From: Actinomadura luteofluorescens
GTDB lineage: Bacteria > Actinomycetota > Actinomycetes > Streptosporangiales > Streptosporangiaceae
DNA: 64,000 bases
Assembly: GCF_013409365.1 (NCBI RefSeq)
Contig: NZ_JACCBA010000001.1
Span: 9,486,001 to 9,550,000, forward strand
Reading direction: 5' to 3'
Shown in pieces: positions 23,070-24,668 of the stretch (its first letter is position 1; each line of letters starts with the position of its first letter). The notes beneath the pieces were generated by a model. The model saw only the letters and a list, made by a program, of their open reading frames with translations, was not told where the DNA came from and ran no database searches. A program made the translations under genes and the position numbers.

Positions 23070-23124
23070 AAAACGACGGGTGAGGGTCCGGGCGTCCGGG
23101 CTGGCGGGCCTAGGGTGGGGCGGC

Positions 23125-23880
23125 ATGGCGCTGCGACTTGTCCAGGTGAACTTCAAGGCTCGGGACGATTCGGCGCTCGGCCGGTTCTGGGCGGAGGCGC
23201 TCGGCTGGGGCACCGACAGCGAGGCGCCCGGGGTGACCAACCTTGAGCCCGCGGGCTTCGACTGGCCCGACCCCACCGCCGTCTGCGTCGACCTCGTCAC
23301 CGTGCCGGATCCCGAGTCGGTGAAGGACCGCGTGCACCTCGATCTCGCCACCGCTTCCGCGGCCCATCAGGCCGAGCTGGTCGCGCGCCTGAAGGATCTC
23401 GGTGCGACGCCCGCGGATGTGGGCCAGGGCGATGTCCCGTGGACGGTCCTGGCCGACCCGGAGGGCAACGTGTTCTGCGTGCTGGAGCCCCGGGAGGTCT
23501 ACCGGGACACCGGGCCGATCGCCGCGGTGGTTGTCGACTGCGCCGATCCCCGGGCCATGGCCCGGTTCTGGGGCGAGGCGATGGACTGGACCCTGCACGA
23601 GCTGACCGACGACCGTGCGGTGATGCGTGCCCCCGAGGGCGTCGGCCCGTATCTGGAGTTCCTCCGCACGCCCGCCGAGAGGACGTGGTGGAACCGCGTG
23701 CACCTCGACCTGCTGCCGTACGTCGTCAGCGACAAGGAGGCGGAGGTGGACCGGCTGCGGGGCCTGGGCGCCACAGACCTCGACGTCGGTCAGGGCGACG
23801 TGCCGTGGACGTGCCTCGCCGACCCGGAGGGCAACGAGTTCTGCGTCCTCGGCCGGAGCACCGACGAAGCCTCGGCGTGA
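23125..23880 (+). CDS. Two-domain VOC (glyoxalase-like) protein
   Basis: A 251-residue protein starting MALRLVQVNFKARDDSALG. It has two tandem vicinal-oxygen-chelate modules of about 120 residues: the first ends VPWTVLADPEGNVFCVLEP, the second VPWTCLADPEGNEFCVLGR. Each carries the family's RFWxEAxxW and RVHLDL elements. Such Glyoxalase_6-type actinobacterial proteins are abundant and mostly uncharacterised; roles include antibiotic binding and small-molecule isomerisation. It lies 55 bp after the ROK gene and may be co-transcribed. Confidence 0.85.
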   Translation: MALRLVQVNFKARDDSALGRFWAEALGWGTDSEAPGVTNLEPAGFDWPDPTAVCVDLVTVPDPESVKDRVHLDLATASAAHQAELVARLKDLGATPADVGQGDVPWTVLADPEGNVFCVLEPREVYRDTGPIAAVVVDCADPRAMARFWGEAMDWTLHELTDDRAVMRAPEGVGPYLEFLRTPAERTWWNRVHLDLLPYVVSDKEAEVDRLRGLGATDLDVGQGDVPWTCLADPEGNEFCVLGRSTDEASA

Positions 23881-23887
23881 AAACCGC

Positions 23888-23917
23888 TTGAGCTTCCCTT
23901 CCGCGGTCCCGTAGGTT
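23888..23917 (+). promoter_or_regulatory. Candidate promoter for the DUF1062 leader
   Basis: TTGAGC (23888-23893) and TAGGTT (23912-23917) with an 18-bp spacer fit the actinobacterial housekeeping consensus (TTGACA / TAGNNT). It starts 7 bp after the VOC stop and would give a leader of about 185 nt before the DUF1062 ATG. Confidence 0.55.
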
Positions 23918-23977
23918 GCCCGCGGCTCCATCGCAGTGAAGGCAAAGGACAGAACCGCGTGACCCCGCCTGCTCTTC

Positions 23978-24098
23978 AGACCTGACATCTTCTTTCGCTC
24001 ACCTGTAGCCGACGCTCCCGTCGGTCCTGCCGGGCCGCACTTGCGCGCCCGGCCCTGCAGCGTTTGAGGCCGCGCGTAATCGGCCTCGTGTCAGGTCT
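23978..24098 (+). ncRNA. Structured 5' leader (multi-helix RNA) upstream of the DUF1062 gene
   Basis: A 121-nt stretch folds by perfect helices. P1 is AGACCTGACA (23978-23987) with TGTCAGGTCT (24089-24098). Inside, CTGTAG (24003-24008) pairs with CTGCAG (24055-24060, one U-G pair) and encloses two hairpins: CCGACG/CGTCGG (24009-24024) and GCCGGGC/GCCCGGC (24029-24053, further capped by CGC-ACTT-GCG). A fourth hairpin, GAGGCC/GGCCTC, is at 24066-24087. P1's 3' strand ends 9 nt before the ATG, touching the ribosome-binding region (AGAGAG), so P1 formation could mask it. A tiny frame, GTG at 23959 to TGA at 23983 (MTPPALQT), overlaps P1's 5' strand. Architecture suggests a riboswitch or attenuator; I do not recognise it as a known class. 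Confidence 0.65.
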
Positions 24099-24107
24099 AG
24101 AGAGCTC

Positions 24108-24668
24108 ATGTCTTCACAACCTCATATCGTGCTGCCCTGGGTCGTCCGTCGGACCAGGCTGCCTCTGCTGTCGTCGCGGTGCGTGGACTGCGGGTCGCGG
24201 TCGGCCACCACCGGCGAGGGCAGGTTCCGCGTCAACGCCAACGGCAAGCTGCTGGACGTGTGGCTGCTGGTCCGCTGCGTCTCCTGCGATCGGACGGGCA
24301 AGGTCCCCGTCCACGAGCGGGCGCCGGTCAGATCCCTCGATCCGGCCGAGCTCCACGGCTACCGCGTCAACGATCCGGAGCTGGTGGCGTCCACGCTGCT
24401 GGATCCGTTGCTCGCCCGGCGCAGCCGCTTCACCCTGGACTGGACGGAGGCCTGGCGGTTGGAGGCCCCCTCGCCGCGGCTCGACGAGGCATGGCCGGTC
24501 CAGGTGGAGGTGGTCTTCGAGGATCCGGTGCCGCTGCGCCCGGACCGGCTCATCGCGCAGGGGCTCGGCCTCAGCCGGAACGAGGTCCTGCGCCGGATCA
24601 AGTCCGAGACCTCGTTGCGCCGTCCGAGGAACACCGGATTCACCTTCACGGTGCTGCCGATGCGGTAG
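24108..24668 (+). CDS. DUF1062 family protein
   Basis: A 186-residue cytosolic protein. It opens IVLPWVVRRTRLP and carries a zinc-ribbon-like pair CVDCGS and RCVSCD (about residues 25-65), with GRFRVNANGKLLDVWLLVRC between, the DUF1062 hallmark. The second half contains a DUF1062 tail with IAQGLGLSRNEVLRRI, which looks like a helix-turn-helix-like element. Function is unknown for the family. It follows an elaborate folded leader and is followed by its own terminator, so it is a single-gene unit. Confidence 0.88.
   Translation: MSSQPHIVLPWVVRRTRLPLLSSRCVDCGSRSATTGEGRFRVNANGKLLDVWLLVRCVSCDRTGKVPVHERAPVRSLDPAELHGYRVNDPELVASTLLDPLLARRSRFTLDWTEAWRLEAPSPRLDEAWPVQVEVVFEDPVPLRPDRLIAQGLGLSRNEVLRRIKSETSLRRPRNTGFTFTVLPMR

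Follow-up and report, generated by a model that had tools for sequence, protein, structure and literature searches.

A DUF1062 gene of Actinomadura luteofluorescens is preceded by a folded RNA leader carrying a short upstream open reading frame (uORF). The gene lies in the 64-kb window analysed here, which is the whole stretch of 64,000 nucleotides, numbered from its first letter. We consider it probable that the leader is a ribosome-controlled translational attenuator, with the uORF acting as a switch that senses stalled ribosomes, on a WhiB7-type gene. A closing helix hides the Shine-Dalgarno (SD) sequence of DUF1062, and its 5′ arm is made up of the 3′ half of the uORF. Across lineages the uORF, the SD-masking helix and one hairpin, P3, are kept. 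The combination of a folded, SD-hiding leader with a uORF and an antibiotic-type promoter suggests that DUF1062 is probably a translation-stress response gene.

Structure of the leader

The leader has a minimum free energy (MFE) of -75.5 kcal/mol (z -7.19), and 0 of 200 shuffles were as stable; the longer segment 23924-24130 folds with an MFE of -91.1 kcal/mol (z -5.34). An earlier note on this DNA had proposed a nested multi-helix leader, and most of that architecture is present. The closing helix (P1) lies at 23978-23987/24089-24098 as claimed, the two enclosed hairpins are P3 and P4, the fourth hairpin (24066-24087) is P5, and P1 ends 9 nt before the ATG of a gene whose identity as DUF1062 is confirmed by a PF06353 match. 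Beyond that list we find an SD-masking extension of P1 (23971-23976/24100-24105), a possible outer helix P0 (23936-23943/24110-24117) and a WblC-type promoter (Table 1).

In P0 the sequence GUGARGAC, 5′ of the uORF, complements GUCUUCAC. The 8-bp match is perfect in 83 of 120 leaders, compared with 0.9 expected from shuffled sequences. These and all later uORF, codon, promoter and footprint counts omit L001 (a duplicate), L039 (no leader), L049 (gene decayed) and six loci that are partial, distant or decayed (L099, L123, L124, L128, L129 and L130). P0 may hold the DUF1062 start codon; it is less certain than P1 because both of its arms are otherwise constrained, one as SD-like sequence and the other as coding sequence. 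No intrinsic terminator was found on the + strand between 23850 and 24200, which favours translational over transcriptional control.

Table 1. Features of the DUF1062 leader and its locus, with loci of the second leader type in the last row.
Feature	Position	Strand	Basis
WblC/WhiB7-type promoter: GAAAAC box 23879-23884, -35 TTGAGC 23888-23893, 18-nt spacer, -10 TAGGTT 23912-23917	23879..23917	+	Pattern match
P0 5′ arm (GUGAAGGC); the outer helix may pair with the DUF1062 start region	23936..23943	+	Perfect 8-bp partner in 83/120 leaders; in MFE fold of 23924-24130
uORF SD AAAGGA, 9 nt before GTG	23944..23949	+	Sequence; similar GGA-containing site in nearly all aligned rows (by eye)
uORF GTG ACC CCG CCT GCT CTT CAG ACC TGA (MTPPALQT*)	23959..23985	+	Locus survey; tree-based codon test
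Anti-SD GCUCUU (uORF codons 5-6), partner 24100-24105	23971..23976	+	Window MFE fold; 55 leaders
P1 5′ arm (AGACCUGACA), shared with codons 7-8 and the stop of the uORF	23978..23987	+	MFE fold; 55 leaders
P2 5′ arm CGCU, partner 24059-24062	23996..23999	+	48-53/55 per pair; RNAalifold
P3 hairpin GCCGACG...CGUCGGU	24008..24025	+	Most covarying helix; kept in short leaders (by eye)
P4 hairpin CCGGGC...GCCCGG	24030..24052	+	97.6% of cells paired, 55 long leaders; missing from short leaders
P2 3′ arm AGCG	24059..24062	+	RNAalifold; 55-leader pair counts
P5 hairpin GAGGCCG...CGGCCUC, loop highly conserved	24066..24087	+	98.2% of cells paired, 55 long leaders; missing from short leaders
P1 3′ arm (UGUCAGGUCU)	24089..24098	+	MFE fold; 55 leaders
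Likely SD of DUF1062, GAGAGC, masked by anti-SD	24100..24105	+	Unpaired probability model, 120 leaders
P0 3′ arm (GUCUUCAC), G of ATG into codon 4	24110..24117	+	Complementarity test; MFE fold of 23924-24130
DUF1062 gene, 186 aa	24108..24668	+	Pfam PF06353, E 9e-34
Loci mostly carrying the second leader type	L161, L163-L173, L176, L177-L206, L266, L273, L274		uORF M-Y-T-x paired to start region

Conservation and covariation

DUF1062 matches, fragments included, occur in 49 of 65 genomes of the genus and in 83 of 200 genomes of the family, representing 33 of 68 genera. Inspection of the DNA upstream of these loci showed the leader in 47 of the 48 genus loci (L002-L049), with L039 being a DUF1062 locus that has none. 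We then built a covariance model, R1, from 55 long leaders and 42 pairs; its search of the order yielded 129 matches in 122 of 249 genomes. Comparing coordinates by eye, 91 of the 129 adjoin a DUF1062 match; for the remaining 38, DUF1062 sequence, partly damaged, lies downstream in 36, and two (L311 and L331) are without it. Named hosts of this window-type leader include Micromonospora, Actinoplanes, Asanoa, Nocardiopsis, Trebonia and Streptomyces hoynatensis. Rfam gave 0 matches in the window and six related loci (best sub-threshold E 1.3 or worse). With nothing above the gathering threshold, this agrees with the earlier note, which had not recognised a described class. As far as searched, the leader is a new family absent from Rfam, and a uORF switch is a known kind of control.

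Long leaders were aligned as a set of 38 from the genus and a wider set of 55 of 94, on which the following figures are based. Standard pairs fill 93.6% of cells; sliding the 3′ partners out of register lowers this to 25-45%. Cells with double changes number 25 against 9.4 in shuffled alignments, a value reached by 0 of 500 shuffles. Most of the covariation lies in P3, where A-U is replaced by G-C in 12 of the 55 leaders; P1 has one clear exchange, with C-G, U-G and U-A in 42, 7 and 5 leaders, respectively. A conserved multi-helix leader is supported. In the anti-SD helix, the five inner pairs form in 48-52 leaders each and the outermost pair in 17.

The inner helix that the earlier note placed at 24003-24008/24055-24060 can form in this genome but is not borne out as a conserved element. 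Across the five of its six pairs that were tested, 70.9% of cells are paired, two pairs form in just 31 and 27 of the 55 leaders, and its covariation is no better than shuffled (456 of 500 shuffles equal or higher). A 4-bp helix that competes with it, P2 (23996-23999/24059-24062), fits better: 92.7% of its cells are paired, and each pair is present in 48-53 leaders.

Several further observations concern the leader as a unit. The P5 loop (GCGCGYAAUC; window 24066-24087) and the flanks of P4 are near-invariant in long leaders, a feature that the uORF model does not explain. One genome (G005) has two DUF1062 copies, L045 and L036, one with a long leader and the other with a much shorter one whose start region has no outer-helix partner. 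At L049 most of the leader is left before a decayed DUF1062 gene, and L130, L311, L312 and L118 are likewise relics in which the leader, or part of it, outlasts a decayed or truncated gene; L312 and L118 have lost the uORF start codon as well.

The uORF encodes a selected peptide

The 8-codon leader frame that had been seen overlapping the closing helix is confirmed, with a GTG start, at 23959-23985. We found a start-to-stop uORF of 4-8 codons beginning with ATG, GTG or TTG in 120 of 121 loci. Codon changes were then counted on the DUF1062 gene tree for 113 of the 120 loci, omitting three with short proteins and four with shortened or odd uORFs (MPAL twice, MPPAL and MPLTA). Codons 2-5 show 2, 2 and 32 changes at codon positions 1, 2 and 3, respectively. 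The codon for Pro4 changed 13 times and that for Ala5 nine times, and the amino acid was unchanged in all. Where codon 5 goes from GCT to GCC, one anti-SD pair is lost yet Ala is retained. Together with the excess of third-position changes, this indicates that the peptide is selected and not the RNA alone. Variants such as MPAL, MTQPAL, MTTPAL and MPLTA exist, and one Pro and one Ala are nearly always kept.

A ribosome on the uORF exposes the DUF1062 SD in silico

We calculated unpaired probabilities with ViennaRNA for the 120 leaders, representing a ribosome as a blocked 31-nt footprint. The mean unpaired probability of the DUF1062 SD rises from 0.12 in the free leader to 0.56 once the footprint is placed over the last uORF codon, and the gain exceeds 0.3 in 87 leaders; a block of the same size in mid-leader left the mean unchanged (0.26). 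This gain in accessibility supports the earlier suggestion that translation of the leader frame could open the fold.

A WblC/WhiB7-type promoter precedes the leader

The response of Streptomyces coelicolor to translation-targeting antibiotics is reported to be governed by WblC (PMC7157823), and the promoters it activates are described as GAAAWY, 3 bp, TKGMNN, 16-19 bp and TANNNT (Lee et al. 2020, PMC7157823). A promoter upstream of the leader, which the earlier note had fitted, is supported by such a motif: GAAAWY-N3-TKGMNN-N16..19-TANNNT has its sole match in the 64-kb window at 23879-23917, with 0.00 expected from shuffles. Transcription is predicted to start at about 23924-23925. The strict motif is present in 74 of the 120 window-type leaders (shuffled mean 0.0) and in 30 of 36 Streptomyces-type loci. 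The genome also encodes a candidate WhiB7-type regulator, a WhiB-domain protein (L340, G000:C1:2584549-2584689, minus strand) with an RGRPR AT-hook-like tail of the kind that marks WhiB7. By eye, the DNA upstream of L340 has an AT-rich stretch near a -35-like site and, before the gene, a GC-rich inverted repeat with T-rich sequence after it, an arrangement like that of a whiB7 attenuation leader.

An unrelated leader of the same design

In Streptomyces, most of the DUF1062 genes examined, with proteins about 45% identical, carry another conserved leader that is unrelated in sequence. Its uORF starts with TTG and has four codons, M-[YH]-T-x-stop, in 33 of 33 aligned leaders and 35 of 36 loci (one by eye). 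The alignment omitted L161 (same genome as L205), L162 (without the leader) and L182; L160 is also without a leader of this type. The helix S1 pairs GUACACC of the uORF with GGUGUAC immediately 5′ of the start of DUF1062, and this 7-bp complementarity is perfect in 32 of 33 leaders, compared with 0.245 expected. In L206 both sides have changed at one S1 pair, from U-A to C-G. Three Amycolatopsis loci (L266, L273 and L274) carry the second-type leader as well.

Proposed mechanism

At rest, the DUF1062 SD and start region would be hidden by P1 and its anti-SD extension, probably together with P0, whereas the start codon of the uORF would remain partly accessible. Ribosomes that translate the uORF, with its 4-8 codons, would open P1 just briefly. 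A ribosome stalled or slowed on the uORF, whether by a translation inhibitor or by hindered termination at the stop codon, would keep hold of P1 by its 5′ arm; this would free the SD of DUF1062, and the protein would be made. Since the promoter resembles those activated by WblC/WhiB7, we propose that transcription and translation both rise under ribosome inhibition.

A more specific version of this mechanism is plausible, and we advance it tentatively. DUF1062 could be an unrecognised actinobacterial translation-stress factor that is doubly controlled by ribosome inhibition: by WblC/WhiB7 at the promoter, and in the leader by an arrest peptide of six residues, MTPPAL, on which ribosomes would probably stall close to the stop codon. 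Streptomyces and Amycolatopsis would then have evolved or acquired an unrelated M-Y-T-x leader of the same design. In MTPPAL the Ala is penultimate when Leu6 is in the P site, one codon ahead of the stop, and chloramphenicol and linezolid are reported to stall ribosomes best with Ala penultimate in the nascent chain (PMC8987054). An inducer, if any acts, might be of the chloramphenicol or linezolid type, drugs that prefer this context.

A number of results weigh against control by a stalled ribosome. In the footprint model the start codon is not freed (0.35 to 0.37), and when SD and start codon are taken jointly the gain exceeds 0.3 in just 10 of 120 leaders. Partial opening of the SD (0.37) is already seen with a ribosome that is initiating on the uORF. 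The SD that serves the uORF itself is largely paired in the resting leader (0.29). The rule for picking uORFs required 'PA' near the end, with L106 (MPLTA*) admitted by hand, and L118 gave no uORF candidate; L118 has GTA at the uORF start position, and its DUF1062 match stops at residue 142. For covariation, double changes fall in 7 pairs, a count in the ordinary range for shuffled alignments (77 of 500), and P1, P4 and P5 covary little because they scarcely vary. In long leaders, P4, P5 and the near-invariant loop are more conserved than a plain spacer requires. The WblC motif, matched by pattern only, is missing in its strict form from 46 of the 120 loci, many of which are near-misses by letter or spacing. 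Some short leaders show no WblC motif, and upstream of the WhiB7-like gene L340 there is only a loose motif, the strict copy being absent. Finally, four second-type leaders that were folded did not exceed shuffled sequences in stability (z -1.14 to +0.51), so the evidence for that type is its conserved complementarity.

Alternative explanations

Autoregulation, in which the DUF1062 protein would bind its own leader and repress its translation as in ribosomal-protein operons, is an unlikely explanation.

A ligand-binding riboswitch is one we judge distinctly unlikely. The nested P2-P5 would form an aptamer that stabilises P1 and masks the SD, with the uORF incidental or tuning. A closing helix such as P1 that goes along with a masked SD is usual as the expression platform of a riboswitch, which counts for this explanation, as does the near-invariance of P4, P5 and several loop positions in long leaders. 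However, no aptamer is conserved in all members. In the short leaders (19 of 20 aligned, L045 omitted) the gene, uORF, P1 and P3 are kept and P4 and P5 are missing; four of them that were folded have z of -3.9 to -5.0 with a short P2-like helix, and P0 is seen in three of these four. The extended leaders L100-L104 keep the gene, uORF and P1 and have extra hairpins, with P4 and P5 rearranged. Together, the short and extended leaders argue against a fixed aptamer. A riboswitch is also hard to reconcile with coding selection on the uORF, with a leader tied to one gene family in 127 of 129 model matches and with the lack of an Rfam match. The earlier note had titled the leader a riboswitch or attenuator; a ligand-sensing riboswitch is not supported as the favoured reading. 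The attenuator half of that title fares better, because the uORF and SD masking persist where P4 and P5 vary and prove dispensable, the peptide is selected, and an unrelated second leader parallels the design.

We give little credence to constitutive translational coupling, in which the uORF would simply hand ribosomes on to DUF1062 with no sensing. Short leader genes in Actinobacteria have been proposed to raise translation of a nearby gene through reinitiation (PMC4833913), and the partial opening of the SD by a modelled initiating ribosome would fit such a scheme. The proposed effect, however, is reported to peak at a stop-to-start distance of 10-11 bp (PMC4833913), whereas in these leaders the stop codon of the uORF is about 74-152 nt upstream, and coupling leaves the masking helices and the conserved peptide unexplained. 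Amino-acid attenuation, with the Thr-Pro-Pro codons sensing charged tRNA, would fit the constancy of Pro4 and the reported enrichment of Corynebacterium ilvB-II motif uORFs for branched-chain residues (PMC10272879), but it is very improbable given that only one Pro and one Ala are nearly always kept among the variant peptides, that the other leader type encodes M-Y-T-x, and that DUF1062 is no known biosynthetic gene.

The DUF1062 gene and its surroundings

The DUF1062 family ranges over Actinomycetes, Clostridia, Gordonibacter-type bacteria and others, and is hardly mentioned in the literature searched. The nearest named relative of the window protein is from Actinomadura luteofluorescens (93% identity). 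CxxC pairs are invariant among DUF1062 proteins, and in the window protein the CxxC...CxxC part is N-terminal; at the C-terminus there is what we take to be an S4-like sequence pattern. Structure comparison gave weak matches only. It is possible that DUF1062 acts on ribosomes or RNA. Public DUF1062 entries include several of 179 aa, as if starting about 7 codons after the conserved ATG (window 24108-24129); the geometry of the leader points to the conserved ATG as the start.

Directly upstream of DUF1062 in the window is a gene with a Pfam Glyoxalase_6 match (23110-23880). The end of a Glyoxalase_6-like gene (EGN-F-C-L type) also lies directly 5′ of DUF1062 at L039, L093, L095, L097, L098, L107-L109 and L128-L130. 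The leader sequence is present in one copy in the 9.6-Mb genome, which does not fit a mobile repeat of the miniature inverted-repeat transposable element type.

Significance and comparison with known systems

The promoter motif and the leader both point to ribosome inhibition, providing a functional lead for the DUF1062 family. The 120 leaders, whose minimal version is about 100 nt long, make up a compact natural set, together with the decayed copies and the unrelated leader type, for studying how the ribosome reads a peptide of 4-8 residues. The leader may also serve as a reporter for translation inhibitors in antibiotic producers.

Among antibiotic-inducible leader peptide systems, ErmC is alike in design. 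The closest known design is toiL-topAI of Escherichia coli, where a hairpin containing a uORF is reported to mask the downstream ribosome-binding site of topAI, several classes of ribosome inhibitor release topAI, and the site is proposed to be freed by stalling at different points along the uORF (PMC12121999). It differs in gene, sequence and host, and topAI is described as being under Rho-dependent termination as well (PMC12121999). Additionally, toiL is described as having no Ala, Ser or Thr codons (PMC12121999), whereas the DUF1062 uORF keeps Ala5 and usually Thr2.

MefAL, ErmDL and MsrDL, as reported, likewise combine a short uORF, a peptide that matters and a stalled ribosome that remodels the leader (PMC10314930). 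MsrDL (MYLIFM) is reported to stall at termination (PMC10314930), and the same may be possible for MTPPAL-stop. MsrDL, however, is described as acting by transcriptional attenuation at an intrinsic terminator (PMC10314930), which the DUF1062 leader does not have on the + strand, and unlike the genes of this group DUF1062 is no known resistance gene. The promoter shares with the WblC/WhiB7 regulon the reported GAAAWY box 3 bp 5′ of the -35, spacer of 16-19 and TANNNT (PMC7157823); DUF1062 would be a candidate member of this regulon, and wblC itself is reported to be under uORF-mediated attenuation (PMC7157823). Lastly, Corynebacterium ilvB-II is a similar case in which a conserved actinobacterial 'structured RNA' candidate proved to be uORF attenuator-like; ilvB-II is reported to work by transcription attenuation with a branched-chain-rich peptide (PMC10272879), whereas the DUF1062 leader combines translational masking with a T-P-P-A peptide.
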